DNA from: a virus | IMG/VR virus record: IMGVR_UViG_3300017917_002593 | Span: 22,212 to 86,211 of that record | Reading direction: 5' to 3' (one strand) | Length of the DNA stretch: 64,000 nucleotides | Shown here: positions 21,868 to 60,066 of the stretch, one piece after another | Numbering within the stretch: position 1 is the first letter of the stretch | Layout: each line of letters starts with the position of its first letter | Program-made: the position numbers and the translations under genes | Notes under the pieces: model-generated | The model's input: only the letters and a program-made list of their open reading frames with translations | What the model was told of the DNA's origin: nothing | Databases searched by the model: none

Positions 21868-22254
21868 ATGGCATTAATTCCATTAAACACGTTTAAAACA
21901 AAAACAAAAGTATTAGATACTAATTCAACATCAACAGTATACGTTGCACCAATTGGCGTAACTTCTATTGTACTAATGGCTCAAGTTGCCAATGTTGATC
22001 CGGCAGCGGCACATACTATTACCTTTAGTCATCATAGGAGATTTAGAGTGCTCCCTGATGCCCAAGGAAATAACGCTCAAGATCCAAACATTACAACTGA
22101 GTTGGTGCAAAACTTTGAAGTCCCACCTAATGATAGTGCAGCATTAATTACAGGCAAGATGATTCTCGAAAGTCAAGATAGTATTAGAGCCAGTGCTGAC
22201 GCGAACGGTGTCATGAAATTAGTTCTAAGTATTCTTGAAACAGCCAACAATTAA
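21868..22254 (+). CDS. Small beta-rich virion protein between the giant fibre genes
   Basis: This 128-residue protein has a strong AAAGGAGA ribosome site. It begins with strands (TKVLDTNSTSTVYVAPIGVTS), has a short basic loop (SHHRRFRVLP, near residue 54) and ends with FEVPPNDSAALITGKMILES then DSIRASADANG. The C-terminal half resembles the 105-residue protein at 14100. Its position between two paralogous giant fibres suggests a linker, cap or assembly partner. No enzyme motif is present. Confidence 0.72.
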   Translation: MALIPLNTFKTKTKVLDTNSTSTVYVAPIGVTSIVLMAQVANVDPAAAHTITFSHHRRFRVLPDAQGNNAQDPNITTELVQNFEVPPNDSAALITGKMILESQDSIRASADANGVMKLVLSILETANN

Positions 22255-42396: not shown

Positions 42397-45300
42397 ATGG
42401 CAATTAATTTAGATACCAGTCAGCAAGGTAATATAACCTTAAAATCACCTACAACAGGAACAGTTACTCTAACCTTACCGCAGAGTGCAACAACCAGCGG
42501 TTGGTTATTAGGTTTAGCTGATACCCAAGGTAGCTTGGCATTTATTCCGCCTGGAACAGGTGCAAGCGGCGCAGCAGGAGCCACAGGTGCCACAGGCCCA
42601 ATTGGTTCAACTGGCGCAACCGGTGCTACAGGTGCTACTGGTTTACAAGGTTCGACTGGTGCTACAGGCCCTATTGGTGCAACTGGATCTACAGGTGCTA
42701 CAGGTTTAAGAGGCGGCACTGGTGCAACTGGTCCTGATGGTGCTACTGGTGCAACAGGACCTCAGGGTGCTACTGGAGCAGCAGGTGCCGGCGGTCAGGG
42801 CGGTGCTACTGGATCTACTGGTCCAATTGGATCGACAGGTGCAACTGGTGCTACTGGACAACAAGGTACTACTGGTGCTACAGGTTTAAGAGGCGCAACT
42901 GGTGCAACTGGACCTCAAGGTGCTACAGGTTTCCCTGGTGCTACAGGCGCAACTGGTCCTCAAGGTGCTACAGGTGGTGCAGGCGGTCAAGGAAATCCTG
43001 GTGCTACAGGCGCAACTGGACAACAAGGTGCTACAGGTGCAACCGGTCTTGTAGGTGCAACAGGTGGTATTGGTGCAACAGGCGCTCAAGGTTCAACTGG
43101 CGCTCAAGGCGCTACCGGTGCAACTGGCCCTGCAGGTAATGCGGGTAACGCAGGTGCTACGGGTGCTACGGGTGCAACTGGCTTACAAGGTACTACTGGT
43201 GCTACAGGACCTCAGGGATCTACTGGTGCAACAGGACCAACAGGTGCTACTGGTGCAGCCGGAGGTAACGGTGCTGTTGGTGGAACAGGTGCAACTGGTT
43301 TAGGATACGATGTAACAAGTTCAACATCAAATACAAACGGTACAGGTAGCAAAACTTGGACCGTTAATAGAACAAATGCATTCAGTGTAGGAATGCGTGT
43401 ACGAGTCATTTACCCTGCTGTTCCTACAAACTTCATGGAAGGATCAATTACTTCCATTGTTGGTTTAGCAATTACTGTAAACGTTGATTATGTAGCCGGT
43501 ACAGTAGGCGGCGGCCCATGGGCAAACTGGACAATTGACGTTGCTGGTATCCACGGAAGTACAGGTGCAACTGGCCCTGTTGGTGCAACAGGTCCTATAG
43601 GAGCAACTGGATTACCTGGATCAGGTGGTGGCACAGGTGCTACAGGTGCTACAGGACAAACAGGTGCTCAAGGTAACCAGGGCTCAACAGGTGCAACTGG
43701 CCCTGCAGGTGCCAACGGAGGCACAGGTGCAATAGGTGCCACAGGTGCCACTGGTAACATAGGTTCCACTGGCGCAACAGGCGCTACTGGTTTCCAAGGT
43801 GCTACTGGTGCTACTGGACCAACAGGAACTGGAGGTAGTACAGGTGCTACTGGTGCTACTGGTGCTACTGGTGCTACAGGTATTAGAGGCACAGGTGCTT
43901 GGACCGCAGTTTATACTTCTGGAATTTCGACAACAAATCTTACAATCTTTACAAAGACTGGAGGAACTAACGGCGTTTGGGATCAACAGGTTTACTCAGC
44001 TGAAGGCTTTATAAGAGGTGCAATGGCCAGCGCCAGTGTTAATGACACTACTGGCCGCGCAATGTTCGGTTTAAACTCCGATCCAACAGGCAGCGCAAGT
44101 TTTGATACTCTTGATTATGCAATTTATTTTAATGCAGGTACGGTTGTAATCTACGAAAGTGGTTCTTCTGTACAAACAGCAGGCGCATATACTACCGCAG
44201 ACAAGTTTGTTATCACTTATGACGGCGGTAATGTTAGATATTGGCAAAACAATACATTATTAAGAACAACTGCAAGAGCAATTAGCAGTTCTGCACTGTA
44301 TTTTGATTCTTCTATTCAAACTACAAACACCGCTCTAACTAATGTTGCGTTCTCTGCTATGGGCGAGATTGGTGCAACAGGTCAAGCCGGTGCTGGTATT
44401 GGCGCAGGATCTGCTAACCAAGTTATCTTTAAAGACAGTAGTAACGTCTTTGCAGGTTCTGCAAACTTAACATTTGACGGAACAAATTTAAATATTGGTG
44501 GTGCTTTAAGATTTGATGGCAAAACAAATTGGGAACATAATGATAGTGCAACCGGTACAGGTGCACCTACAATGTCTTTCCATGCGTTGGGCGCTCCTGG
44601 TAAGAAACATCCAAACTATCTTGATGAAAACTTCTTTGCAGGAACCAATAACATAAACGTTTACGATAATAACGGATCCGGACAGACCGTTATTACAAGA
44701 ATAACAGCACCGAGCGATACTCCAACAACCAGCGGATTTGTTTTACAAATTCAACATACAGGCTCTGGCCAAACTCCGGGATTTGGCGGATTTTACTTTG
44801 CCGTTCCGTCAAGAGCTAATGCAATTTTAGTTGCCAGATTTAAGGCTAAACTTCCTGTAGGGTATACACTCAACTGGGCAAGTAACGCAATCGGAACTGG
44901 CAGCGTAACCTACTGGGCAACAAATAATGTCGGAACAGGCAAATGGGAAGACTATGCTTATGTAGTAGTTTGTGGTGGATCTGGAACATTCAGCTCTACA
45001 CACTTCTTCTTTGTAACAGGCAGTCCTGCCCCTACAAGTGGTACTCCGTTAACATGGTTTGTTGCGTCTGCTGCGGTATATGATGCAACAGATCATAGAA
45101 CAGATATATTATATTTGGATAGAGCAGGCGGAGTTGCTAACATCAAAGGCTACGGAGAAGGACAGATCATCATTGACGGTTCTACTACCGGCAAAGCTGT
45201 TTATCTAAATCATTATATAAATGCCGATGTATATGCAGCCAGTGGCGGCGGCAAACTGAGAGTAGGTAGCACTGCTGTTCCAACATACGAATTAGATGTT

Positions 45301-48300
45301 GCAGGCGAAGGTGCTTTCCAAGGCTATTTAAGAATTACCAATACTGCTGGCGAACAACGTCTATTAATGGGTAACCAGGATAGCGGTGGAACGAACAATC
45401 CAAGTATAATTCGTGCAGCCAACGGAACACTGTATTTTGGCAATGGTAACTCTTGGACAACTAACGGTGGTACTGTAACTGACTTTGCAACATGGGCAAC
45501 TGGCGGAAGTTCTTTAATATCTGGTACAGGCTCTAACCCTGCTTTAACAATTACTCCTGGCGGAAACAACTGGAGTGAGGGTATTAGAATTAACCCGTCA
45601 ACTACAGGCGGCTGGGCTGCGGTATTGTATCCTATTACAGCCAACACTGGCGGTGATTCTTGGTTGCTCGGTAAGGCAGGAAGCACAAATCAGTTTACTT
45701 TATTAAAGAACGGATTTACTGGCTCTGCTGCTTTTAGATCAGATGCAGCCTTTGATGTTAGTGCAACTACAGGTAGATTTACCTTTGGTTATAATCCATA
45801 TGTAGGTCCAAACCAAGTTTGGCACGCAGGTAACCTCACAAACGTTAACCAACTAAGTAACGGTCCTGGATTTGTCAGTTCAGGTAGCACACCTACATTC
45901 CAGTATGTATTAACAACTAACGGTGGTCTAACTGATAACAACGGCGGCCTAAAAGTATATGCTCCAGGAGGTGGTGCATATACTACTGGTGCAAGCAGTG
46001 TAGCTGGCGCAATTAAGATTAGATTGCCACAATTCCGTACAAGTACAATGATGCGTATGACCGTAAAAATTTACGAATACGCAGGTGGTAGTGCAGGCAC
46101 AAGTAGGACTATCGAATTAGGTGGTTATAACTACGGACCGGGTGGCTGGTATAACATTTTTGCATATCAGCAGACTCATGGTGGCGGCGATTTAAATGTC
46201 CGATTTGGTCACGACGGTACAAGAAACTGTATCTGGATCGGTGAAACAGGCGGAAGTTGGTCATACCCTCAAGTCTTTATCACAGAATTCCAAGCTGGTT
46301 ATAACGCATTTGCTAACACAGATTGGAACGACGATTGGTCAGTTACATTTGCCACAGCATTTGATACTGTTGAAAACGGTCCTATTACTGCTGCAAGAGC
46401 ACATACAACCTACAGTTTAACTAACCTAAGTCAGTTGACTAACGGTCCTGGATATCTTACACCGTATTATACAAGTCCACTCGACTTCCGAGGCGGAAAG
46501 CATATGTTCCACTCAAGTGGAACTGGCTCATCTTCTATTAATGCCGACACTTATGCAATGCAAGTTGGACCTGCTACAACCAGAGTAACTACAGCAAATA
46601 GCTACTATGGCGGTATTGCATTTAACCACTTGCTGAACTACAGTGGCGGCACATTAAACGCAGACAATACCGGTTATAACGTTAGCCCACATGCATGGAT
46701 TGGTTTAAGACTACACGATACTCCGGGAAGCGAGCGCAGTTTCTTAGCACTGGCTGTTAAACCAGGAACAGGTACAACTGGAGCCGGAACTGATGTTCCA
46801 GTTGAGCGTGTAACTATTGATCCAGTAGACGGATTTGTTGGTATTAACGTTCTTGACCCATTAGCAAGATTGCACGTTAGTGGTGATAGTAGATTCCAAG
46901 GCGATAGTAGAATATACTTAGGACCAAACAGTACATGGAGTGCTGATCTTATCCTTGGTGGTAACGGCAGAACAGATTCGAGTCGTGCAACAGTTGCCGC
47001 AACTAACGGCAATTTACATATTGATGCGGCTAACGGTTACGATCTATATCTAAACTATTACAGTGGTCGTCCTATCTACACAAGAGGCAGTGCGTTCACT
47101 AACTGGGATAGCGGTAATTTGACTAACCTAAGTCAGTTGACCAACGGTCCAGGTTTTATTACCAGCTCCGGCAGTATTGATAACTTAGGTGGAATTAACT
47201 ACTTGAGATTTGTCTACGGTGATAACACTACCAAGACTACATATACTGGCTTTACACAACAGCTAAATTCCGGATTCTATAATCATGATAGCAGCGGTGG
47301 ACCAACTGCTGCTTGGTATCACATGATTGCAAACCGCCACACAAATACTGGTAACAACTACCAAATGCAGATTGCACATCAGTTCTTTAATGATGCTGAC
47401 TTCTGGGGTAGAACTGTCGACAACGGAACTTATAAAACATGGCGCCGTTTCTGGATGGACGGTGGTACTAACGGATTAACCAACCTAAGCCAATTGACTA
47501 ACGGTCCGGGATTCTTAGGTAAATTCGGTAACAGCTATTATCAATTAGATACATGGTTGCAAATTACTGGATATCATGGTCTTTACAGCCCATTAAACGG
47601 TGCTCACTTCTATCCAAACGATGCGTCATACGGTTCCTGGAGAATGTTAGGCACACGTAACGGTTGGGCAGGTATTGAAGGCCCGGGTAACGGCGCCGGA
47701 AACGTTGTTGTTATGATGAACAGCGATACCAGCGGTTTCCATAACAACAGCTATGGTTGGCATTGGAGATGGTCAAGCGGTACTGCCTACATTAACCGTA
47801 GCACTTACGGTGGCGGTACACAGTATACTATGTGGGACAGCGGTAACCTGACCAACCTAAGTCAGTTGACCAACGGTCCGGGATTCATTACAGCTTCCAG
47901 CGGTGCTCTGTATATTGTCAGCCAGGATACACGTAACAGCAACTTTAACCCTCAAGATAGAGTCGCTGGTCTATGGGCTGACTTTAAAACCAACAGTGTT
48001 ATTGGCTTATCCGACGGTGGCAGCTATAACGGATTATTAACTTTCCGTAGTTATGGTAGCGGTGGAGATTTAAGTGGCGGACAACCAAGTCAGTTATCTT
48101 ATACTCCTAACGGAAACTGGTGGCATAGATTAGGCACTGGTACAACTTCTTGGGGCGGATGGAAGCGTTTCTGGGATAACAGTAACCTAACTAACCTAAG
48201 TCAATTGACCAACGGACCTGGTTTTGTTGTTAACGGACAAGGTAGCGTAACATTTAGTGATATCTATAACAACGGCTGGTTTAGAAATAACAACAGCGGT

Positions 48301-49500
48301 CAAGGTCTATACAACCAAGCAACTGCTAACCACTGGTATAGCCCTGCAGGCAACTATTGGGATGCAGGCCAGCAAGGGTCCGGCGGTATTAGATTAAGAA
48401 ACGGCTATGCAGGTACTATTTTAGGATATTACTATGCTGATACTTCTCTAAACAGCGGATTGTTAAACCAAAACGGTAGTTGGAAAGTTCGTGTAGTCAG
48501 CGGCGAAACTGAAATTTACGATATATTATACTGGAACGACGCCAGAGGATATATTTTCTATGATCGTAACGATACTGCCTACTATGCAGACCCTGCAAGT
48601 ACCAGCAGGTTTAACGTTCTTGGAGTAGGTCTTCAGGCTAACAACGGCGGTAAATTAAGTGTTACCGGCGGACACGGCGATTCTACAATTAGATTAACTG
48701 CACAAGGTAACCAGTTAGGTTCTGGTGTTACATCCTCAATGCACTGGTGGGTAAGTGAACCAGGTATTACATGGAACGAAGGCGGCTTCGGTTACAACGT
48801 AACTAACGACGGTGGTGCACCAGGCGGCTTTAGTAGACCAAACACCAGTTATGGTCAGGCCTACATGCGTTTCAGTACTGCGGGACATTTGTATTTCTAT
48901 AATACAAACACCAGCGGAACTCGATTTAATGCTATGGACATGTATTCCAGCAATTACATATATGTCTATAACTATCTCGAAGCTGGCGGATCTCTAAGAG
49001 CACCGATCTTCTACGATAGTAACAACACCGGTTACTACATGGATGCGGCGGGCACTACAAACTTAAACGTTCTGCAAGCAGTATCTGCAAACATTACTGC
49101 CCAGTTTGCTCGTTGGGCGGACGTGGCAGAAAAGTACGAAGCCGATGCCGATTACGAACCCGGTACTGTATTAGTATTTGGAGGTGACAAGGAAGTTACT
49201 ATTTCAACAGAAACTCATTGCCCAGAAGTTGCAGGTGTTGTATCAACCAAACCAGCATTACTAATGAATAATGATTTGAAATCTACTTTTGTTGCCAATC
49301 TTGCGCTAACAGGTAGGGTTCCTTGTAAAGTATTAGGACCGGTAAAGAAGGGACAAATGATTGTTTCTTCTCATATACCTGGTGTAGGCAGAGCAATGGA
49401 TAAAACATTGTACGAACCTGGTTGCATTATTGGTAAATCTGTAGAAGCAATTGAGTCTGCCGAAATCAAAGTCATTGAAGTTGTTGTAGGAAGACTGTAA
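42397..49500 (+). CDS. Collagen-like tail fibre protein, 2367 residues, with Peptidase_G2-like C-terminus
   Basis: Two collagen-like Gly-X-Y blocks lie at about residues 56-301 and 387-498, made mainly of GAT, GPI, GPQ, GST and GLQ triplets, separated by a beta-rich spacer. The middle has lectin- or fibre-like beta domains. Between residues 1150 and 1950 six linkers of the type [11 protein letters not shown] occur. Near the end there are two xYDxNxTxYYxDxxxT motifs. The last 130 residues ([20 protein letters not shown], then [18 protein letters not shown] and [15 protein letters not shown]) form a C-terminal domain common in such fibres. It is related to intramolecular chaperone or Peptidase_G2 domains, which trimerise and may self-cleave. 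Prolines are mostly in X positions, and there is no Lys in the triplets. The adjacent oxygenases could act here; that is inference. Confidence 0.82.
42562..43890 (+). repeat. Collagen-type Gly-X-Y coding repeats in two blocks
   Basis: Blocks at about 42562-43300 and 43555-43890 are tandem nine-base units dominated by ggt-gct-act and ggt-gca-act variants. The units vary at third positions, so they are not perfect DNA repeats. They encode about 80 and 37 triplets. Long open frames on the opposite strand across this stretch are a by-product of the repeat. Confidence 0.85.
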
Positions 49501-49520
49501 AATAGTTGCATGACTATTTT
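49499..49520 (+). promoter_or_regulatory. Hairpin enclosing the start codon of the cassette's first gene
   Basis: AAAATAGT (49499-49506) and ACTATTTT (49513-49520) are perfect inverted repeats around the six-base loop TGCATG, which contains the ATG at 49510. A further T follows. The element begins in the stop region of the collagen-like gene. It could be a weak terminator or attenuator, or a translational switch that hides the start codon. No clear Shine-Dalgarno precedes this ATG. Confidence 0.5.
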
Positions 49521-49992
49521 TAGTACACAAGATTTGGATGAAATAATCTTTCATCCAATCTCCTACGAACAACGCATGGTGTCTATAATCGACAACATTG
49601 GCCGACAAATATTCTTACATTCAGTTGGTGAATTATTTCAGTACCCCAGTCATACCATAAAAGTAGAAGGTCTGGAAAAATACAGTAAAGAAATTGAAAA
49701 GTTTATCTGTTTGTTGAAAGAAGACTATCAGCATAATGGACCAGTAACGTGTCACGCCTTTAAGTCTTTTAAAAATTCTGGAAGTTTCGGAGTTCATACT
49801 GACCCGGACAATGTATTTTTATTAGTAGTCGATGGAACAAAGCATATGACATACAATAATGTTACCTACGAACTAACGAAAGATCAAAGTCTGTTTATTC
49901 CTGCAAACAGTCCTCATTGTGCAATTAATAATGAAGATTCTCTTATGTTAAGTTTTGGGTTAGAATCGTATTTTTGTGAAAAATTAAAATGA
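49510..49992 (+). CDS. JmjC/cupin_4-like Fe(II) oxygenase
   Basis: This 160-residue protein has a cupin core with an HxD pair and distal His: GVHTDPDNVFLLVVDGTK (His96, Asp98) and LFIPANSPHCAI (His136). The run HxD, D-N-V-F, then GxK, then xxIPxxxPH is typical of the JmjC or cupin_4 oxygenases that hydroxylate protein side chains with 2-oxoglutarate. The N-terminal part is helical. It is the first gene of the cassette, ten bases after the fibre gene, and its stop overlaps the radical-SAM start. Its ATG lies in a hairpin loop without a clear ribosome site. Substrate is unknown; the adjacent Cys-His-Ser protein or the fibre are candidates. Confidence 0.7.
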   Translation: MTIFSTQDLDEIIFHPISYEQRMVSIIDNIGRQIFLHSVGELFQYPSHTIKVEGLEKYSKEIEKFICLLKEDYQHNGPVTCHAFKSFKNSGSFGVHTDPDNVFLLVVDGTKHMTYNNVTYELTKDQSLFIPANSPHCAINNEDSLMLSFGLESYFCEKLK

Positions 49993-51062
49993 CTGCTAAC
50001 CTTATCTATCTTAAAACTACAGAGACCTGCAACTTAAACTGTCTACACTGTTTTACCAGCGGCAGTAAAGGTGCTAAAATCTATTGGGATCATCTAAAGG
50101 TCGTGAACTGGTTAGAAAGATTAAGCAAACATCTGCCTAAAGAAAATCATGTACACTTAGAATTTCATGGAGGAGAACCCTTCTTAGCTGAATTAGATTC
50201 TTTACAATATGTCTATGATAATTGCAAAGATCTCTGGGATAATCAAAGCTGGGGAGTTACTACAAATTTAACGTTTAAGCTCACCCAAGATATTATAGAT
50301 TTTATCATGGGGCCATTAAATGGTCGCGTTGGGACCAGTTGGGATCCAGATATTAGATTTTCAAGTCCTAAGCAATACGACCTATGGCGTAAAAATGTAG
50401 AAACCTTAACTAAGTTAGGTGTTGAAATTAAACTTTTTGTATCAGTTACTAAAGGTACTGTTGCAATGGAACCTATTGATCTATTAGAGTGGGTACGAGA
50501 TTTGGGTGTAAAAGAGTTAGCATTAGAACGATTAACTGTTAACGGCAGCGCCAGACAAAATTTACATATATTCCCATCAAACTTAGAACAAGACGCTTGG
50601 TTCTTAAAAATGCATCAACAGAGTAATGCTGCTGGTGCAAGAAATTGGTTCGAAAACGAATTTTTAGAAACAGTATATGCCAAGTTTGAGATGGGTATAA
50701 GTTCACAAGGAACATTTTGCAGAGATTGCGAAGAAAAATTATTCACGGTTAACGCCGATGGTTCAATTTCTGGATGTCCTAATAGTGCGCCAGAACAGGC
50801 TTTTGGGCATATCAACGACGATATAGAACAGTTACTTTACAGTCCAAAACGTATTGAAAATATTGTCTGTGAACGTAGTAGAGATCCCAGATGTTATCAA
50901 TGCCCGGTTTTTCAATATTGCGGCGGAGACTGTCATCAACTCGAGTGGCAAGACGATAAATGTGGAGCTCCAAAGAGTTTGATGCTTAATTTGGCAGGAA
51001 TAAATACCGATAGGACTAATAAGATTATTTTAATAAAGGAGTTAAAATGCCAAGTGGATTAA
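49989..51062 (+). CDS. Radical SAM/SPASM maturase-like protein 1
   Basis: This 357-residue protein has the cluster motif TCNLNCLHC (Cys14, Cys18, Cys21) and the SAM-binding GGEP at 61-64. A C-terminal SPASM-type set of cysteines starts near residue 243: FCRDC, GCPN, CYQCPVFQYCGGDC and CGAP. This is the layout of anaerobic sulfatase-maturase and RiPP-maturase enzymes, which carry auxiliary Fe-S clusters and modify peptides. It overlaps the cupin gene by four bases. It also overlaps the gene for the Cys-His-Ser protein by 16 bases, which points to that protein as the substrate. HxsB of His-Xaa-Ser systems is also a SPASM enzyme, but orthology is not established. Confidence 0.9.
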   Translation: MTANLIYLKTTETCNLNCLHCFTSGSKGAKIYWDHLKVVNWLERLSKHLPKENHVHLEFHGGEPFLAELDSLQYVYDNCKDLWDNQSWGVTTNLTFKLTQDIIDFIMGPLNGRVGTSWDPDIRFSSPKQYDLWRKNVETLTKLGVEIKLFVSVTKGTVAMEPIDLLEWVRDLGVKELALERLTVNGSARQNLHIFPSNLEQDAWFLKMHQQSNAAGARNWFENEFLETVYAKFEMGISSQGTFCRDCEEKLFTVNADGSISGCPNSAPEQAFGHINDDIEQLLYSPKRIENIVCERSRDPRCYQCPVFQYCGGDCHQLEWQDDKCGAPKSLMLNLAGINTDRTNKIILIKELKCQVD

Positions 51063-51625
51063 CGGACCCGATAGCCCGACAGAACATTGTAAATAGATTC
51101 GCAGACTATGTTAGAGGCGCGGCAAATTCTGGCATTTCTTGGGGAACTAACGCCTATCCATTTGGAGAATTTAGTGTACTTGCCTATGTATTCGGCGGAA
51201 CTACAGCTGGTAAAGCTATTGAAATTGACGGCAACAGTTTAGGTGCTGCCGGAACAGTTGCCAACGCTAACACAGTCTATAACGTTTTAATTGCCGAAAC
51301 TACCAGGTATACACGAATTAGACTAATGAGGGCTTTATTGTTTGTTGATGGCGGCGGCGGAAACACTGGCTCTCGTCCAACTCCGGGATATGTATATGAC
51401 GGAACCGCTGTTGCACATCTTAACAGCGGATATCAAGTAAACGTAAGTGCAGGAAGAGATAACGTTTTTTCCGGAAACACTATGACTCGAGTGGGTACAG
51501 CCAATATGTTTAACAACATGAGAGCTGCTTATAACAGTATAAGAGGCTCTGCCGTTACGTTCCAAGTAAACGTATGCCACGCATCTTGCCACAGTAGCTG
51601 TCATAGCTCTCGAGGCAGGAGATAA
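51047..51625 (+). CDS. Cys-His-X-Ser tail protein, candidate RiPP-like substrate or virion protein
   Basis: This 192-residue protein ends in three tandem C-H-x-S units followed by RGRR (residues 177-192: CHAS, CHSS, CHSS). Residues 1-176 form a Gly/Ala/Asn-rich, beta-leaning domain (RQNIVNRFADYVRGAAN, then ETTRYTRIRLMRALLFVDGG and SRPTPGYVYDGTAVAHLN) and contain no cysteine. Cysteine is thus confined to the repeat. A good AAAGGAG site precedes the ATG, which lies inside the end of the SPASM enzyme gene. The body looks more like a virion component than a short leader. The concentrated repeat beside radical-SAM genes resembles the HxsA repeat protein of His-Xaa-Ser systems. Alternative: a metal- or haem-binding tip, since CHxxCH is a CX3CH pattern. 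Confidence 0.75.
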   Translation: MPSGLTDPIARQNIVNRFADYVRGAANSGISWGTNAYPFGEFSVLAYVFGGTTAGKAIEIDGNSLGAAGTVANANTVYNVLIAETTRYTRIRLMRALLFVDGGGGNTGSRPTPGYVYDGTAVAHLNSGYQVNVSAGRDNVFSGNTMTRVGTANMFNNMRAAYNSIRGSAVTFQVNVCHASCHSSCHSSRGRR

Positions 51626-51634
51626 GGATTTAAG

Positions 51635-52366
51635 ATGAGTACTATCATTGACACAGTTGCTCCTATTGCATTAGAAGATTTGAAAAAATACTTTATTAAC
51701 AAAGATATTGTATTTGTAATCGACTATGAAAAGAGTAGCCTAACTGGCGCCAAATTGTTGACCTATTTAGGAAATTTAGATATCCCTTGCGATATAAAAT
51801 TAAGTTTTACAGAACCTTCACATTTTGACTTACTTAAAGAATATTTTGAAACTGGCAACCTATTAAAAATACCCAGTTTAGAACAGGCAGCAATTCTTTG
51901 TCTGTTAGAAAAAAAAGAATTAGTTATCAATACCCCTTTTGAAAATTTTATTAAAGAGAATGAGACAACATTAAACGAATGGGAATCGAGATTAGACAGT
52001 TTAACGCTGTTCAATATGCAAACTGTAGATGTTGACGAGTTTAAAAACTTTGTAGATCAGTTCCCGGAAGATTTATCAGACTCGTCGAAGTATGTAAATT
52101 TTGTTAACTTAGCACGCCATGAAGATTTTTTCTTATATTATTCAAAGATCGATAATGCTAAATTAAAAAATTATAAAACCCTGTTTAACGATTACTGCTA
52201 TCGGGGAAAAAACTTATACAGTTTCTGGGCAGTTGACACCAACCCATTATTCTTATTAACATGGTCGATCGCTTCTGGAAATTTAGATACTGAAGAGTAC
52301 GTAAATTCAGTTAAAGAAGACTACAATGTAGTAACTAAGGACTCAGCAAATGTTTCACCTGTTTAA
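51635..52366 (+). CDS. Unknown protein, cassette component
   Basis: This 243-residue, mixed acidic and aromatic protein has no motif I recognise. The N-terminal half reads as alternating helices and strands (DIVFVIDYEKSSLTGAKLL, IPCDIKLSFTEPSH), and the C-terminal half is helical. It starts ten bases after the Cys-His-Ser gene with a GGATTTAAG-type upstream sequence, and overlaps the next gene by 17 bases. Position between the presumed substrate and further radical-SAM enzymes suggests a recognition or scaffold role, comparable to precursor-recognition proteins. There is no visible PqqD-like fold signature to support that. Function is unknown. Confidence 0.75.
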   Translation: MSTIIDTVAPIALEDLKKYFINKDIVFVIDYEKSSLTGAKLLTYLGNLDIPCDIKLSFTEPSHFDLLKEYFETGNLLKIPSLEQAAILCLLEKKELVINTPFENFIKENETTLNEWESRLDSLTLFNMQTVDVDEFKNFVDQFPEDLSDSSKYVNFVNLARHEDFFLYYSKIDNAKLKNYKTLFNDYCYRGKNLYSFWAVDTNPLFLLTWSIASGNLDTEEYVNSVKEDYNVVTKDSANVSPV

Positions 52367-53567
52367 AAAAGTATATTTAGATTTTGACGATAAAATTAAT
52401 ATGAGCTATGACAGGATAGTTTGTTCAAATGCCTATGGCGGAATTATAGATTCTATCGACTTATCTAAAGTATTTTATGGGGAACTAATTGCATCAAGTA
52501 AGAACATTGGTGACTTAATCGGCCCCGAAAAGAAATTTAATACCTTCTTAGAAATGTTGGAGCTATTAAACAGCAGAGTTGATCAATATAACAGCCCTGT
52601 TTACGTCTACTGTGATAAAGAATCGTATTATAAATTTGCAGTCAAGTGGATGAAAATTATTCTTCCAAGATGTACAGCACCCGCAGCTTGGAAATTTTTC
52701 AAGTCTCATATTTTTAAAGAAAAGAATTTTGTTAATTCCAGAATGTCGGCCTCTGAAAGATTTATCAATGATGTAGACTCGTGGTATTTGCTCGAAGAAC
52801 AATTTAACACATACTGGACAAATGAAGTTGTTACTCAAGCTGATAGAAACACATATTCTCAATTTATAAACACAGTAAAGAATAATCTCAAAGTTGAATT
52901 TTTGCTTGCATCTTACCTTTACAATAAAAGTCTCGGTGATGTTTTAGCTAAGGCAATTACTCCGTTAGTTAAAAAAGATTTAGAAAAATTTATATACGAG
53001 CATAAAGAAGTTATCCTTGTACATTTTCAACGTCCGTTTTTTCAAACCCTATTAGGAGTTCAAAACGGCCCATACACCTTTGACAATTTTTATTCAATGG
53101 TAGATGATCCTGCTCCATTAGTACAGTTGATGTTTAAGCCAGAAATATGGGGTGAAACTCGAAGCTCTATGTTTGCTCCGACTTCCTCTGGCTCAATTAA
53201 TTTGTCAGCATTTACTGATGAAGATATTACTAACCTAAAAAGTTATAGCGCAATTACAGGGCAAATTTGGAAAGACGAAGTTTGGTATACCAGTTTAAGA
53301 ACAACTCCGTCGGCGCAATCATACTTAGGATCTGAAGTTGATAAATTTGATTTTATTAAATTTTTTAGAAACAAAGATTACCTAACAGTTGAAGAATTAG
53401 ATTCTATTTTAGACTATGAGATCTACCATCAGTATCATTCTGCAGGATCGTTTTATGCGTTTGACTTAAGATCAGTTAACACATATTTTGTAGACTTCTT
53501 ATTAATGAACTACAATAATGCAGAACTACTTGAACCTTTTATTATTGAAATCAACGAAAGCCAATAA
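52350..53567 (+). CDS. Unknown 405-residue protein, cassette component
   Basis: No known domain is recognised. The protein is rich in Phe, Tyr, Lys and Asn and predicted to be largely helical, with the segments YDRIVCSNAYGGIIDSIDL near residue 20 and RCTAPAAWKFFKSHIF near residue 107. Aromatic patches (HFQRPFFQTLL, EIYHQYHSAGSFYAFDLR) are frequent. No cysteine cluster or HxD pair is present. It overlaps the upstream unknown gene and lies two bases before the second radical-SAM gene, so it is part of the same operon. It could be a large accessory or docking protein of the modification system. Confidence 0.75.
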   Translation: MFHLFKKVYLDFDDKINMSYDRIVCSNAYGGIIDSIDLSKVFYGELIASSKNIGDLIGPEKKFNTFLEMLELLNSRVDQYNSPVYVYCDKESYYKFAVKWMKIILPRCTAPAAWKFFKSHIFKEKNFVNSRMSASERFINDVDSWYLLEEQFNTYWTNEVVTQADRNTYSQFINTVKNNLKVEFLLASYLYNKSLGDVLAKAITPLVKKDLEKFIYEHKEVILVHFQRPFFQTLLGVQNGPYTFDNFYSMVDDPAPLVQLMFKPEIWGETRSSMFAPTSSGSINLSAFTDEDITNLKSYSAITGQIWKDEVWYTSLRTTPSAQSYLGSEVDKFDFIKFFRNKDYLTVEELDSILDYEIYHQYHSAGSFYAFDLRSVNTYFVDFLLMNYNNAELLEPFIIEINESQ

Positions 53568-53569
53568 CA

Positions 53570-54595
53570 ATGTCAATATACGAAGTCATTGATTCTAAAG
53601 TTGTTGATCATGGAGAAGTTATTGTTTGCTTATTTGAACACTGTAATTTACAATGTTCATTTTGTCCACAAGATCATAATTCTTTAATCGGTGTCTCTCG
53701 AGAAAAGATTTTAGGAAAGATTCCCTCAATAGTTAAATGGATCAACGAAAACACCAGATCAAAGTGTTTCAAGATTCATATAATGGGAGGCGAGCTGTTT
53801 CAAGATTGTTGGATAAATGATGGCTTCATTGAAATTTATCAAGAGCTATTGTATTCTATTCGTGCTCAAGTATCAGAAGATAAAGATTTAATTTTCAACT
53901 TTGTCACAAATTTAGTGTTTGAAAACACAGATAAAGTATTAGATTTTCTAAAAAAGAATAATCTAAAAATCTCAGTGTCTTATGATTCCAAAGGACGTTT
54001 TAATAAAAGTCAACTTGAAACATTTAAACGCAATATAGAAATATTTAGAGACAACATTGAAATGATCTCTCTTGTAATGACTCTTCAAAATATGGAAGCA
54101 GTTATAGCAGGCGACAAGTACTTTGATTATTTGTATAATAATTTTCCATGTGATTGGGATTCTTTTCTTCCCGCAGTACAGGCATCTGAGATCATGATGC
54201 CTAAAGAATCAGATCTACTTAAATTTTATAAGCATTTAGTTGATCGATATCCCGACTGTACAAATATTTCATATTTTACAACAACTGAACATTCTAAAAA
54301 AATGACATGCACTCGCGGTAGTAATTTTACAATAATGCATGATGACACAATTCCTCAAGGCTGTTCGGGCAGTATTCTTATGAAAGGGAATACTACAAAA
54401 AATACAGCGTCGGATCAAATTGTGATAAATTTTTTTAAAACATACAATTGCTTTGAATGTGAGTATTTTAAAAAATGCCCATTCACATGTTTCATAAAAA
54501 ACGACTATAATAAACTCAAAAAAGATGTTGGTGAGTGTGTTTTTAAATTAACTTTTGATCATGTAAATGCAAGAAAACAAGATACACTTTTATAA
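53570..54595 (+). CDS. Radical SAM protein 2 with SPASM or twitch-like C-terminus
   Basis: This 341-residue protein has the cluster motif HCNLQCSFC (Cys25, Cys29, Cys32), the SAM-binding GGEL at 73-76, and a C-terminal cysteine set (TCTRG, GCSG, NCFECEYFKKCPFTC, ECVFK) that fits auxiliary Fe-S cluster binding. In place of the usual GGEP it has GGEL, a tolerated variant. Two bases separate it from the upstream unknown gene, and its end overlaps the third radical-SAM gene by 29 bases. It differs from enzyme 1 outside the motifs, so this is not a simple duplication. Peptide modification is inferred from family and context. Confidence 0.88.
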   Translation: MSIYEVIDSKVVDHGEVIVCLFEHCNLQCSFCPQDHNSLIGVSREKILGKIPSIVKWINENTRSKCFKIHIMGGELFQDCWINDGFIEIYQELLYSIRAQVSEDKDLIFNFVTNLVFENTDKVLDFLKKNNLKISVSYDSKGRFNKSQLETFKRNIEIFRDNIEMISLVMTLQNMEAVIAGDKYFDYLYNNFPCDWDSFLPAVQASEIMMPKESDLLKFYKHLVDRYPDCTNISYFTTTEHSKKMTCTRGSNFTIMHDDTIPQGCSGSILMKGNTTKNTASDQIVINFFKTYNCFECEYFKKCPFTCFIKNDYNKLKKDVGECVFKLTFDHVNARKQDTLL

Positions 54596-56297
54596 ACCAG
54601 TAAGAGTCGTAAAAGAACCCTTAACAATTGCATTTGTAAATCCTCCACATGCAGATTGGTCTCTTATAAACACGCTGACTTACCATTTATGCCATAGTCA
54701 TTATAGTCGATATGGCAAGTATAAAGACATGGTTAAATGGCTACCATCTCCTTACAGATGGAATAAGTATTCTTCTTGTCAAGAAGTCTATGAAGAAATC
54801 AAAGAAGCAGACATAATCATGTTTAGTTCATATGTCTGGAATTATCCTATATGCGATGAAATTGCTAAGATAGCCAAAGCAAATAATAAGATAACACTAT
54901 TAGGCGGCCCGCATATTGGAACTAACGACAACGACTTTTTAAAATCAAGAAATTTTTACGACTTTATTTGTAAGCCTACTAAACCGGGAGAAGTATTTCT
55001 TGAAGACTGCATTGATTCTTGGTTTGAAAATGACAAACATATACAAGCTGAAAACATAAGCTGGGAATTAAATTCATCAAAGACTCGAGATTATTCTATA
55101 TCAGATTTAACGTATTCTGTATACGAAGATCATGCTGAGTATTTGAAAGAAATAGTTACCTATGCAAAAATTAATAAAATGGAGCCTTTTGTTGTTCTTG
55201 AAACTACAAGAGGATGTCCTTATAGTTGTGTATTCTGCGAATGGGGCGGCGGCATTGGCACCAAAATACAAAAGAAACCTTTAGACATAGTAAAACGAGA
55301 TATCCTTGCACTTTTAAATATAGGATATCGAGATGCAATGTCTGCAGATGCAAATTTTGGTATTTTTTTAGAGAGAGATTTAGAGATTTTAAGATTTGCA
55401 TGGGAAAATGGATTTAGCATAAGTGACATGTCGTCAATGAAATCGAAAGATCTAACTAAAAGGAAAAAATTAGTCGACGAATGGTTTAATATTGTAAGTA
55501 GGCCTGTTACTAAAACTAATAGTAGCGCAGACAACATGTGGGAAAATACCAAATATATTTCCATCCTACCAACTGTCTCGATACAAAGTATTTCGAACGA
55601 AGCAATGAAGATTGCAAAAAGAGTTGACTTGTCGTATGAGGACAAGTTAGAGTTAAGTAGATATATAGGAGAAAAAATTCGAAGCGCAGGCTATCCTGTT
55701 CCTGCACTTGAATTAATATTAGCAATGCCCGGCTCGACTTTAGATGATTTTTATAAAGAAATGGAAATTATTTGGAACTTTAGGATATGGGGATTGCGTC
55801 GACACGATTATATGTTCTTGCCCGACTCCGAACTAAATTCAGAAGAATATAAAAATCAATACAAGATAGAAACAGTAGAAGTTTATTCAGATTCTGCTGA
55901 TGAAGATGGGTCTGACAATTTTTATAGTTTGTATAAAAACAAAAAATCTTATTTTAAGACTATAAGGTCTTGTTATTCTTTTACCAAAGAAGAGATGCTT
56001 GAAATGTTTTTTATGAACTGTGCCGCAACATATCTGCTTAGGAATGTTTATCAGGAATACGAACCTTATCTACTACCTGGAGATTTTTGTAAACTGTGTT
56101 ACAAAATTATAAAAACATTTGACTCCTACAAAAAAATTTATGATGCAATTGAAGATATATTCGATCCAACAACTGCTCCTAAATCAATAAAGAAGATAGA
56201 AAACAGGGATAGGGTTGAAGTAGTTGAGGAACTTATCAACAATAATATTTTGTTACTTAAAAATGGGATAGCTAATCATGTACTCGTCGATCAATAA
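54567..56297 (+). CDS. Radical SAM protein 3, cobalamin-class-like
   Basis: This 576-residue protein has an N-terminal domain that looks like a B12-binding Rossmann fold: IAFVNPPHAD near residue 21, DIIMFSSYVWNYP near residue 82, and ITLLGGPHIG near residue 109. The usual DxHxxG cobalamin ligand motif is not evident. The radical-SAM cluster is RGCPYSCVFCEWGGG (Cys217, Cys221, Cys224), followed by a TIM-barrel-like part. Class B radical-SAM enzymes include C-methyltransferases acting on peptides (for example in proteusin clusters) and on other substrates. The start ATG overlaps the previous gene, and the end overlaps the next dioxygenase gene by 20 bases. Substrate is unknown. Confidence 0.85.
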   Translation: MQENKIHFYKPVRVVKEPLTIAFVNPPHADWSLINTLTYHLCHSHYSRYGKYKDMVKWLPSPYRWNKYSSCQEVYEEIKEADIIMFSSYVWNYPICDEIAKIAKANNKITLLGGPHIGTNDNDFLKSRNFYDFICKPTKPGEVFLEDCIDSWFENDKHIQAENISWELNSSKTRDYSISDLTYSVYEDHAEYLKEIVTYAKINKMEPFVVLETTRGCPYSCVFCEWGGGIGTKIQKKPLDIVKRDILALLNIGYRDAMSADANFGIFLERDLEILRFAWENGFSISDMSSMKSKDLTKRKKLVDEWFNIVSRPVTKTNSSADNMWENTKYISILPTVSIQSISNEAMKIAKRVDLSYEDKLELSRYIGEKIRSAGYPVPALELILAMPGSTLDDFYKEMEIIWNFRIWGLRRHDYMFLPDSELNSEEYKNQYKIETVEVYSDSADEDGSDNFYSLYKNKKSYFKTIRSCYSFTKEEMLEMFFMNCAATYLLRNVYQEYEPYLLPGDFCKLCYKIIKTFDSYKKIYDAIEDIFDPTTAPKSIKKIENRDRVEVVEELINNNILLLKNGIANHVLVDQ

Positions 56298-56805
56298 TAT
56301 ATATGAAAAAGGATTTGTAAAACTTTATGAACCTGAAGGCGTAGGTATGATACAAATCGATAACTTTGTTTTATTAAACACCGAAGAGCGCCTGCGTGAT
56401 AACATTAAGCATGATGTATCAAAAGATCTCTCTGAACGATTATCTTTATTTGGCCAGTATTTAAAAACTAAGTATATTGACCCAGAATGGCCGGACGCAG
56501 TATATAATAAATTTGTTGTTTGGGAAGGTGTTGACAAAGACAATCAGGGATGGCATACTGATATGTTTGAAGGCTACGACATTTTCTTTTTATATTATCT
56601 GGATACAATGTCTCCAGAAACAGGCGGCTCAATAAGTTTTAAATGGCAAGGCGATGGAGATAATTCAGTTGAATTTTACCCTAAAGCTGGAGATCTGTTT
56701 ATGGTTAATAATATGCGAGGTTTTTGGCACAAGGCACAAAGCTGTAGTATTAAGAGACGAGTTGTAAGTTTTGATTTTAATGTAGGATTAACAGATCATG
56801 AATGA
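56278..56805 (+). CDS. 2-oxoglutarate/Fe(II) dioxygenase
   Basis: This 175-residue double-stranded beta-helix dioxygenase has the metal triad GWHTDMF (His93, Asp95) and GFWHKA (His151), with a conserved Arg pair at 160-161 for 2-oxoglutarate. The phrase PKAGDLFMVNN precedes the distal His as in prolyl 4-hydroxylase-like proteins. It overlaps both neighbouring genes by a few bases. Phages of this type often carry such dioxygenases, but here it sits between radical-SAM genes, which suggests joint action on the same substrate. Substrate cannot be read from sequence. Confidence 0.82.
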   Translation: MYSSINNIYEKGFVKLYEPEGVGMIQIDNFVLLNTEERLRDNIKHDVSKDLSERLSLFGQYLKTKYIDPEWPDAVYNKFVVWEGVDKDNQGWHTDMFEGYDIFFLYYLDTMSPETGGSISFKWQGDGDNSVEFYPKAGDLFMVNNMRGFWHKAQSCSIKRRVVSFDFNVGLTDHE

Positions 56806-57103
56806 TGTTAAAAAAATGTTTGAATTAAAAAACGAATTGTGCAAAGAAAGAGACTTATGTGCAGAATTGTGCAATATATGGCTTACACGTATGTATCAGA
56901 ATCAAGGTAACAAAGAAGAATACAACAAATACTTAAAGTTGATACAAGATACAGAACCCTATACTCGTCAACTAAAAGCTAAAATATCTGAATTGAACAA
57001 AAAAATCTGTGAAGTAGAAGGGGTCGACAGTATCACTGATACAGAGTACACACATGAATGCGTGAGCAAATACGGTTTTGATTTTCCTAATACTGACAAA
57101 TAA
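56798..57103 (+). CDS. Small helical protein, cassette component
   Basis: This 101-residue, Glu/Lys-rich protein is predicted to be an antiparallel helical hairpin: KMFELKNELCKERDLCAELC near residue 6 and YTRQLKAKISELNKKICEV near residue 55. It has six cysteines, three of them close together in the first helix. The gene overlaps the upstream dioxygenase gene by eight bases, and its stop codon overlaps the next ATG. It could be an adaptor binding the radical-SAM enzymes or a peptide, but no family is recognised. Confidence 0.65.
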   Translation: MNDVKKMFELKNELCKERDLCAELCNIWLTRMYQNQGNKEEYNKYLKLIQDTEPYTRQLKAKISELNKKICEVEGVDSITDTEYTHECVSKYGFDFPNTDK

Positions 57104-58170
57104 TGGACTTAATTATTAAACCTACAGAAAGGTGCAATTTTAAATGTACTTTCTGTTCAAGTACACATATTACAGAGGACAAGTCTGCTGAGCTCGATCA
57201 CCAATACATTTTCGATTTCTTAAAAAGGTTTCCCGAGACCAATACAATAATTGTTAACGGTGGTGATCCTTTAATGATGACTCCCGAATACTATTGGAAG
57301 ATAATAGATTACTTAGATAAAATAGGATCTTCTGCTTCAATATCTTTTACAACTAACCTATGGCCGTTTTATAAAAATCCAGAAAAATGGAAAGATTTGT
57401 TTAACCATCCAAGGATGGGAATTACAACAAGTTTTCAATATGGCGGTGGCAGACTAAAGGGAGACTTATCTGAATTTAGTGAAGAAGATTTTTGGAAAAC
57501 ATCTGATGCAATGTTAGAACATTGTGGATATCGACCTGATTTTATTTCTGTAATTACAGAAGAGAATGCTCACTTGGCAATTAAGAATGTTGAGCTCGCT
57601 AAACAGATGAATGTTGAATGTAAATTAAACTATGCGTTCTCGAGCGGACCCCCGATAAAGTTTAAAAATATTGTAATGGGGCAACAAGGAAAGCCGTACA
57701 TGCTTGCCGATATCTACGAAATTTATGTAGAAATATGGAAAAGAGGATTAACTCCTTGGGAATATAATACCAAGCAAATGGTCAAAAGACTAAAAGGCTC
57801 GGGCACAACTTGCCCTCAAAATAGAGATTGCGATTCGGGAATTAGAAATTTACAGCCGTCAGGGGATTATTATTCTTGCGGAGCTTTTGGAGATGATAGA
57901 GAATATGCAATAGACTTTAAAAAAGAAATGGAAGGGGAGAAGATATACCCACTAAAATTTCAACCAGAATTGCAGAGTTTGAAACAGAGTTGTTATACAT
58001 GTCCAATGTTTCAGATTTGCAATGGCTGTAAAAAGACTATTAAAGATTTAAAAAGCTACGGATTAGTTGAATCACATTGTATGAAAATGAAGAAGCTGGC
58101 ACCTGATATTATTGCGGCAAATGGTATGACTTTGGAAGTAACAGAGTACGTATCAGAGGTTCAAGATTGA
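57103..58170 (+). CDS. Radical SAM/SPASM protein 4
   Basis: This 355-residue protein has the cluster motif RCNFKCTFC (Cys11, Cys15, Cys18) and NGGDP (52-56) in place of GGEP. It has a C-terminal SPASM-like set (TCPQNRDCDSG, YSCGAF, SCYTCPMFQICNGC, SHCMK). The N-terminus DLIIKPTERCN is close in phrase to known aquatic phage radical-SAM genes, from memory. The start codon overlaps the preceding stop (TAATGG). It ends 34 bases before the fifth radical-SAM gene. It belongs to the peptide-modifying group by architecture; substrate is unassigned. Confidence 0.9.
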   Translation: MDLIIKPTERCNFKCTFCSSTHITEDKSAELDHQYIFDFLKRFPETNTIIVNGGDPLMMTPEYYWKIIDYLDKIGSSASISFTTNLWPFYKNPEKWKDLFNHPRMGITTSFQYGGGRLKGDLSEFSEEDFWKTSDAMLEHCGYRPDFISVITEENAHLAIKNVELAKQMNVECKLNYAFSSGPPIKFKNIVMGQQGKPYMLADIYEIYVEIWKRGLTPWEYNTKQMVKRLKGSGTTCPQNRDCDSGIRNLQPSGDYYSCGAFGDDREYAIDFKKEMEGEKIYPLKFQPELQSLKQSCYTCPMFQICNGCKKTIKDLKSYGLVESHCMKMKKLAPDIIAANGMTLEVTEYVSEVQD

Positions 58171-58204: not shown

Positions 58205-59119
58205 ATGGTACTGTCGATTAATCCCTGGTATTACTGTAATTTTAGATGCAGTTTTTGTTATCTAACCGAAGAACAGTTGTCTGATAAAAAATTATTGCCC
58301 CTTGATAAGTTGGAGCAACGATTAATCGAAATTACTGCTGTTTCAAAAATAGATATGGTAGATCTTTACGGAGGAGAGGTAGGGTTACTTCCAGTATCTT
58401 ATGTAAAGTCTCTAAAAGAATTACTTCACGCATACGGGATTTACGATATTAATGTGATCACTAATTTGTCCATGATAAATGAGATTACTACTGACCCAGA
58501 TTTCTTTATTTCTGTAAGTTATGATTTTAGTGCAAGAGAAAAGCATGAGTTGGTCTTTAGGAATATGGCGCAACTAACTACTCCGTTTTCAGTGTTAATG
58601 TTAGCTTCTCCTAAACTGTTAGAATATGATGTTAACGAAATAGTAGAAACTTTAAATCTATTACCTAATCTACAATCAGTTGAGATAAAACCCTATAGTC
58701 AAAATCAAGCTAATCAACATAATTTGCAGTACACTCAGTTTGAAGAGTTTGTAAAATCTTTTTTAGAGAATAAAAATAAAAACTTTACTTTTGTAAACGA
58801 AAAATTAATACAGCGTGTATTAGACAAGACGAGAAATAGTTTCAGCGATGATCATGTTTACATCACACCGTCTGGAAATTATGGCGTTTTAGAATTTGAT
58901 TTAAACGATCGAGAATATTTTCAAGAGTATGAAACTTTAGACGAATATTTTGAATGGTGTGAACTTGAAAAAGTAAGAGTACAAAAAAATAAATTTTGTT
59001 CAAGCTGTGAATATTTTGGAAATTGTCTATCGGAACATTTACGAGAAGTTAAATCTTTAGATAATAGTTGTAACGGATTTAAAAAGTTAATCAATTGGTA
59101 TGCAAGACTGGAAAATTAG
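58205..59119 (+). CDS. Radical SAM protein 5
   Basis: This 304-residue protein has the cluster motif YCNFRCSFC (Cys11, Cys15, Cys18), YGGEV at 55-59, and a shorter C-terminal cysteine group (FCSSCEYFGNC and a later SC) that could hold one auxiliary cluster. It is the smallest radical-SAM protein of the five and lacks the full SPASM set, so it resembles twitch-type enzymes. It overlaps the next gene by 20 bases. It may be preceded by its own promoter box at 58179. Function beyond radical-SAM chemistry cannot be given. Confidence 0.88.
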   Translation: MVLSINPWYYCNFRCSFCYLTEEQLSDKKLLPLDKLEQRLIEITAVSKIDMVDLYGGEVGLLPVSYVKSLKELLHAYGIYDINVITNLSMINEITTDPDFFISVSYDFSAREKHELVFRNMAQLTTPFSVLMLASPKLLEYDVNEIVETLNLLPNLQSVEIKPYSQNQANQHNLQYTQFEEFVKSFLENKNKNFTFVNEKLIQRVLDKTRNSFSDDHVYITPSGNYGVLEFDLNDREYFQEYETLDEYFEWCELEKVRVQKNKFCSSCEYFGNCLSEHLREVKSLDNSCNGFKKLINWYARLEN

Positions 59120-59504
59120 ACAAGAAATATATCATCGAATGACAAGGGCTCACGAAGATGACCTCAGTCAGTTTGATATTGAGCTAACAGATAATGTTGT
59201 AGATGATGCTGTTCGATATTTTAAAGATCGAAATATAGGTTGGGTGTATCCTTCTAAATCGTACATGGTAGGTATTTGTTATTCAAAGTGGTTATCTAAA
59301 GAATTTGGTGAATTACCTGAATACTATCTTGACGATGCCGATTTACTCTACGGCAATGATCCCTATTTTGTAGAATATAGTAAAGACCCAGAAACATATC
59401 ATAAGATTCTTAATCAAATTGGCGGTTGGGACTTTGATCAAACAGCTGGAATGGTACCGGATGTCTATGAATATTTTAAAAAAGAGTTTTTATTAAATGA
59501 ATAA
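59100..59504 (+). CDS. Unknown 134-residue protein, cassette component
   Basis: This acidic protein has many Tyr, Trp and Asp residues and contains KSYMVGICYSKWLSKEF near residue 57 and GNDPYFVEYSKDPETYHKIL near residue 82. No known motif is recognised. It overlaps both the radical-SAM gene upstream (by 20 bases) and the dioxygenase gene downstream (by 8 bases), so it is a real member of the operon. Its features give no hint of an enzyme; a binding partner role is possible. Confidence 0.7.
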   Translation: MQDWKIRQEIYHRMTRAHEDDLSQFDIELTDNVVDDAVRYFKDRNIGWVYPSKSYMVGICYSKWLSKEFGELPEYYLDDADLLYGNDPYFVEYSKDPETYHKILNQIGGWDFDQTAGMVPDVYEYFKKEFLLNE

Positions 59505-60066
59505 AGGTTTTAATAATTTATGGCCCACACCTGTCTACATAGACAAGATATCTAACGAAGAATTAGTGAATCAAGTATGCGAAGAAATATTGATGAACGT
59601 TGATTTGTCAAAGCCTTTTACTGAATTCCAGGCATATGATATTTTAAGAGACGGTGCAGAAGTGTTTCAAACATTTAGAGATCAGGTAGTGATGCCCTCA
59701 TTTGAAACGTATTTAAAAAACTGGAATTTAAGTTTTAAAGATTTTACAAATTATCGTATTCGGTCTTGGTTAACTGGCGCACATGCAGGGTATAATATTC
59801 CTGTTCATAATCATAGCGGTGCAACTCTAAGTGCAATTTTTTATCTGTTGATAGATGATAATTTACAAGGAGGCGATTTAATATTCCTTGACCCGCGGTC
59901 AAATGCTAATCGAGGATACGAGGATCAATTTAAACCGCTTTTTGAAAACAAGCAGTATTCTCCTAAGTCAGGAGAAGTTGTAGTGTTTCCGGGATTTTTG
60001 TACCATCAAACAATTCCATTTTCTGGATCAATTCGATTAGCTATGCCAGTTGATCTTTTTTTCTAA
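59497..60066 (+). CDS. 2-oxoglutarate/Fe(II) dioxygenase, phage 2OG-FeII_Oxy_5 type
   Basis: This 189-residue protein has N-terminal NLWPTPVY and the metal-binding region PVHNHSGATLSAIFYL (His104/His106), then GGDLIFLDPRSNA. The distal part SGEVVVFPGFLYHQTIPFSGSIR has His170 and Arg180. This layout fits the 2OG-FeII_Oxy_5 family often found in aquatic T4-like phages (named from memory). It is the last gene of the compact cassette; the next gene starts after a gap containing a new late promoter. Its substrate could be a virion protein, but many homologues are free-standing. Confidence 0.85.
   Translation: MNKGFNNLWPTPVYIDKISNEELVNQVCEEILMNVDLSKPFTEFQAYDILRDGAEVFQTFRDQVVMPSFETYLKNWNLSFKDFTNYRIRSWLTGAHAGYNIPVHNHSGATLSAIFYLLIDDNLQGGDLIFLDPRSNANRGYEDQFKPLFENKQYSPKSGEVVVFPGFLYHQTIPFSGSIRLAMPVDLFF

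Follow-up and report, generated by a model that had tools for sequence, protein, structure and literature searches.

PqqD-like recognition elements are winged-helix proteins of ~90 residues, and many peptide-modifying radical-SAM enzymes carry an additional N-terminal domain. In the His-Xaa-Ser (HxsABCD) systems, a substrate with repeated His-x-Ser units is combined with multiple radical-SAM enzymes. Radical-SAM gene clusters are also present in large tailed phages, including Campylobacter phages CP220 and CPt10 (PMC2853527), Ralstonia phages RP12 and RP31 (PMC5468394) and phage FLC6 (PMC8066314). The passages of these papers that concern the clusters present the radical-SAM genes as metabolic or miscellaneous and describe no substrate or accessory protein. 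FLC6 carries the cassette analysed here, of which no earlier description was found in the openly accessible papers searched.

The cassette was examined in a 64,000-base window (positions 22,212–86,211) of the 86,211-base virus record IMGVR_UViG_3300017917_002593. The record represents a tailed phage with genes for a portal, a head protease, a major head protein, a tail sheath and a collagen-like tail fibre. The original prediction had singled out two proteins, here termed A and B, downstream of the gene for a Cys-His-Ser protein. The locus shares with the His-Xaa-Ser systems the repeated His-x-Ser units and the multiple radical-SAM enzymes but differs in that a Cys precedes every His. The Cys-His-Ser ORF (51047–51625) had no NCBIfam match at E values up to 1, HxsA-type family models included, and no A or B member matched HxsD. 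The cassette radical-SAM proteins scored 33.7 bits against the HxsB cut-off of 370 and 30.2 bits against the HxsC cut-off of 267.9. Assignment of the cassette to the His-Xaa-Ser systems was rejected on these family cut-offs.

Organization of the cassette and its Cys-His-Ser protein

The cassette is encoded on the plus strand. According to gene maps, its first and conserved gene encodes a 160-residue cupin-type protein (49510–49992; Cupin_2, E 4.3e-10). The following gene encodes rSAM-1 (49989–51062; 357 residues), a radical-SAM protein with a SPASM domain that is matched by Pfam, NCBIfam and PHROG families and contains a CxxxCxxC motif near the N-terminus. The Cys-His-Ser protein (51047–51625; 192 residues) terminates in CHASCHSSCHSSRGRR. 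Gene A (51635–52366; 243 residues) is separated from the end of the Cys-His-Ser ORF by 9 bases, and gene B (52350–53567; 405 residues) overlaps gene A by 17 bases (52350–52366), so that the order, lengths and overlap originally given for the two ORFs are borne out. Both are genuine genes, for which 109 distinct A sequences of full length and 87 distinct B sequences were collected.

Downstream of B, the cassette continues with rSAM-2 (53570–54595; 341 residues), a radical-SAM enzyme, and a KedN5-like B12-binding radical-SAM protein (54567–56297; 576 residues), which occurs in some cassettes only and matches NCBIfam NF033712 with an E value of 1.9e-20, under the family cut-off. An oxygenase-like protein of 175 residues (56278–56805), which may be prolyl-hydroxylase-like, recurs across cassettes. 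Two further radical-SAM enzymes, rSAM-3 (57103–58170; 355 residues; Radical_SAM, E 1.6e-9) and rSAM-4 (58205–59119; 304 residues; Radical_SAM, E 4.4e-7), precede a 134-residue protein of phrog_20737 (59100–59504; E 7.1e-50) and a 189-residue 2OG-Fe(II) oxygenase (59497–60066; phrog_81, E 1.6e-22). The phrog_20737 protein also adjoins rSAM-4 in phages pPa_SNUABM_DT01 (DT01) and FLC6 and may be an rSAM-4 accessory protein. The collagen-like tail-fibre gene (42397–49500), which contains GATGPQG-type repeats, is located upstream of the oxygenase-like gene, and hydroxylation of fibre prolines by the oxygenase-like protein is conceivable. Elsewhere in the window, two very long and related structural-type ORFs with many internal repeats (15287–21856 and 22268–30568) encode 2189 and 2766 residues, respectively.

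The Cys-His-Ser protein is the proposed substrate of the cassette. It matches phrog_35144 (E 2.7e-5); its body is variable, and its C-terminal tail is fixed. Among 68 unique proteins from loci found through A, the length ranges from 118 to 309 residues, and every C, H and R in the 16-residue tail is invariant. The consensus at the extreme C-terminus is C-H-x-S-C-H-x-[S/N/A]-C-H-x-[S/N/A]-R-[G/S]-R-R. Phage proteins whose bodies differ greatly have the CHxSCHxSCHxSRxRR tail in common, which was seen in at least 120 viral stretches, and this substrate family may merit more attention than A and B.

The location of the Cys-His-Ser protein in the particle was addressed using phage Atu_ph07, whose accessions run parallel to its gp numbers (portal, AUZ94980/gp198; prohead core, AUZ94986/gp204). 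The substrate AUZ94952 should therefore be gp170, and A (AUZ94951) should be gp169. The virion proteins of Atu_ph07 detected by mass spectrometry are mostly clustered, and one cluster is given as 'CDS 170-215' (Attai et al., PMC6102473). Read from its limits, this cluster has the substrate (gp170) as its first member and does not extend to A (gp169), which suggests that the Cys-His-Ser protein resides in the virion and that A does not. The same omission bears on the idea that A and B are structural particle proteins, whose genes would accompany that of the Cys-His-Ser protein on account of joint assembly. The cassette does adjoin tail structural genes, but the exclusion of A by the cluster limits and the co-divergence of A and B with cassette enzymes described below render a structural role very improbable.

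Distribution of A and B

A matched seven cultured jumbo-phage records in a tblastn search: Phosso, pPa_SNUABM_DT01, Atu_ph07 (twice), FLC8, FLC6 and SURPRISE13. All six distinct phages share a layout with a cupin-type protein, a radical-SAM protein, a protein ending in CHxSCHxSCHxxRxRR and A nearby. They also encode additional radical-SAM enzymes and, in most cases, 2OG oxygenases. A tblastn search of the cultured phages with B or the substrate gave no match, and B was recovered in DT01 and FLC6 by a profile search. B is not universal, because the profile search detected no B in Phosso and Atu_ph07; a 302-residue protein of these two phages was considered as the missing B and rejected, since it had no profile support. 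Within the FLC6 cassette, two dihydrofolate-reductase-like genes are observed (L005:12930-14143).

A contig search with the A protein of the window as the sole query returned no relative. The full A alignment contains no stretch that is conserved enough to serve as a search query, and a closer subset was used successfully. The tail motif was searched separately as a DNA pattern, which alone identified at least 120 viral stretches and 19 genome stretches. An ORF containing the motif is present in at least 135 loci, a count that takes in seven loci known beforehand. With profiles derived from a small number of seeds, A was detected in at least 113 ORFs and B in at least 75 ORFs of the motif loci. 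A Streptomyces match to the motif (L138) was dismissed as a chance frame, given that the end of the ORF lacks the motif. Four loci from genome contigs (L133, L139, L144 and L145) contain substrate-like ORFs with radical-SAM and A- or B-type neighbours; their bins are assigned to Bdellovibrionaceae, Bacteriovoracaceae and one bacterium, and the contigs may derive from phages that were binned with bacteria.

The association holds in both directions. Among the matches listed, 45 non-redundant viral loci anchored on the motif have at least 4.5 kb of downstream DNA. In this set, A is present in 45/45 loci, accompanied by B in 31 and by a B-like 367-residue family in 12, so that B or a B-like protein is found in 43/45 and A stands alone in two. 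Conversely, 80 loci were found by the sequence of A itself. A protein ending in CHxxCHxxCHxxRxRR lies upstream of A in each of the 75 loci with upstream DNA, and B is present in 75 of the 78 loci with downstream DNA. The 17-base overlap between A and B is seen again in 48 of 75 related loci. A and B are thus core members of a widespread phage cassette. Absence from related cassettes would have spoken against the original prediction, but A is never missing (45/45 and 75/75 loci) and B only rarely; the proposal that the two genes are sited where recognition proteins are expected is likewise supported by their core position.

The B-like family sits directly before A in a second locus type. Its alignment to B using hhalign (E 7e-4, probability only 26%) makes homology between the two families suggestive only. 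The second locus type (L070:4689-5452, L008:2523-3286 and similar) contains two tandem substrates of ~127 residues and the B-like protein, together with several radical-SAM-like proteins that carry a Cx(2-3)GCFV-type motif. Variation in copy number is also observed, with a duplicated A (L017:1347-3872), a duplicated B (L079:4147-6425) and a shorter second B (L076:8421-9101).

Predicted structures and conserved residues of A and B

A belongs by sequence to phrog_20767, a phage family of unknown function (E 4.6e-55; A residues 3–225 on profile positions 21–256 of 271). B could be assigned to no PHROG family, its best match having an E value of 0.16. Pfam and NCBIfam yielded no consistent match for A and B of the window or for their homologues (67 A and 45 B sequences aligned). 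The earlier statement that the proteins have no recognised domain consequently holds for Pfam and NCBIfam, with the addition that A matches the unnamed phrog_20767. A sequence search of the PDB found no match for A and a best E value of 0.039 over 74 positions for B. A and B were also compared with each other and are not detectably related.

AlphaFold2 produced confident models of each protein alone, with a pLDDT of 91.1 and a pTM of 0.84 for A and values of 88.9 and 0.89, respectively, for B. The predicted A structure starts with a β-α-β-α-β arrangement and is helical in its remainder. The predicted B structure starts with four strands and an α-β-α arrangement, followed by helices. A Foldseek search of the PDB returned nothing significant for either model. 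Against predicted viral structures, the A model has significant matches only to proteins of phages, among them Atu_ph07 and RSF1. As modelled, the fold of A is new.

The most conserved A residues are P10, Y31, S34, Y44, N47, Y70, L82, G153 and N155. They do not compose a catalytic-type set, and an enzymatic role for A is unlikely. In B, H3, Y9, D13, S26, D89, K102 and E183 are conserved. B could be an enzyme because several of these polar residues are kept. A or, more probably, B would then be an enzyme of new fold that performs its own chemical step on the substrate tail. The retention of D13, S26, D89, K102 and E183 in most B members and the enzyme-rich remainder of the cassette are compatible with such a step. 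However, the conserved A residues P10, Y31, S34, Y44, N47, G153 and N155 do not fit it, and neither model has a significant fold match to any enzyme. Weak recurrent matches of the B model to dual-specificity phosphatases reach a best Foldseek probability of 0.30 with an E value of 1.2. Identification of B as a dual-specificity phosphatase was rejected, as these matches lack significance and the window sequence has CDKESYY, without Arg, in place of the catalytic Cys-x5-Arg loop. An independent catalytic role is thus improbable.

The original analysis had also suggested a remote homology search for PqqD-like folds. In Pfam and NCBIfam, PqqD matched no member of the A set (67 sequences) or the B set (45 sequences), and the phage record yielded no PqqD domain. 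A PqqD-like fold is not supported for either protein, as their models have no significant PDB match and their predicted order of strands and helices differs from that of a winged helix. The motif CxxxCxxC is present in 280 of 282 cassette radical-SAM proteins from four groups, with a start no later than residue 69 in every one of the 280. These enzymes therefore appear to have no N-terminal recognition domain. Given that the record contains no PqqD domain and that the radical-SAM proteins leave no room for one at the N-terminus, a discrete docking protein is plausible. A and B are both acidic (median net charge −12), and the substrate tail is basic.

Co-divergence, proposed roles and relation to known systems

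The partners of A and B were analysed by co-divergence, a correlational measure based on pairwise raw p-distances from alignments of 50 loci. A co-diverges with rSAM-1 (r 0.90, partial 0.62) and with the substrate body (r 0.86, partial 0.44). B co-diverges with rSAM-2 (r 0.83, partial 0.73). The partial correlation between A and B is only 0.13 despite their overlapping genes. The contrasts among A/rSAM-1, B/rSAM-2 and A/B persist under subsampling. In 23 loci that contain all genes, rSAM-3 correlates with the substrate at 0.88 and with A at 0.80, compared to 0.55 and 0.63, respectively, for rSAM-2. Gene linkage as the sole cause is disfavoured because rSAM-3, located beyond B and rSAM-2, follows the A/substrate group. 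B and rSAM-2 therefore look like a unit swapped within an otherwise co-inherited set. Because B co-diverges with rSAM-2 more than with the substrate, A and B probably have separate roles. At the sequence level, these patterns favour a model in which A would bridge the substrate and rSAM-1 and B would be the partner of rSAM-2.

The same patterns bear on whether A and B could instead be folding or assembly chaperones of the Cys-His-Ser virion protein, comparable to tail-fibre chaperones. In that role, they would aid substrate folding, oligomerization or tail attachment and would dock no enzyme. The A and B genes follow the substrate gene directly and usually touch or overlap, the cassette comes after the tail-fibre and other structural genes, and A tracks the substrate body, all of which a chaperone would explain. 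However, the correlation of A with rSAM-1 is at least as strong as that with the substrate, and B follows rSAM-2, features that a pure chaperone would not require. We regard a chaperone function as rather unlikely.

Under the preferred model, A and B would serve as accessory proteins in a phage cassette for the post-translational maturation of a virion protein. A would bind the substrate and hand its tail to rSAM-1, and would in this way act as a recognition element whose fold is unrelated to the known ones. B would associate with rSAM-2, as its partner or as a subunit that positions the substrate, and rSAM-2 would act on the same protein. A would be active in maturation and would not be retained in the particle. 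We consider it an even call that A is a substrate-docking adaptor of new fold, B is an rSAM-2 partner subunit and the cassette matures a virion protein. The earlier proposal of a new recognition or scaffold protein is supported in essentials for A, whose co-divergence with both the substrate and rSAM-1 is as expected of an adaptor, except that the predicted fold is new and not PqqD-like; B is likelier a partner of rSAM-2. A more general version is put forward tentatively, at slightly below an even chance: many tailed phages would hypermodify the CHxSCHxSCHxS C-terminal tail of a virion protein using radical-SAM enzymes and oxygenases, the unrelated-fold adaptor A and the enzyme-specific partner B. 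If true, phages carry widespread radical-chemistry machinery that acts on a particle protein, with a recognition factor that is invisible to homology searches for PqqD-like elements. Two 'hypothetical' families, one of them already in PHROGs, would become testable parts of a single pathway, and the cassette is available in the cultured phages Atu_ph07, FLC6, pPa_SNUABM_DT01 and Phosso.

The comparison with known systems reveals both shared and distinct features. Like PqqD-like recognition elements, A and B are accessory proteins encoded beside the protein proposed to be modified and its putative maturase, a radical-SAM/SPASM enzyme, and a role in presenting the substrate is proposed for them. 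Unlike these small elements of ~90 residues, A and B contain 243 and 405 residues, and they are predicted to start with β-α-β elements followed by helices rather than to form a winged helix. The cassette has the conserved substrate tail adjoining radical-SAM/SPASM enzymes that characterizes RiPP-type radical-SAM maturation cassettes, but its substrates of 118–309 residues are far above a typical peptide precursor in length. Based on gene content, the cassette would work like a RiPP-type radical-SAM maturation system that introduces a putative modification. The family phrog_20767, which includes A, carries no function, and its link to a CHxS substrate and a radical-SAM cassette is contributed by the present analysis.
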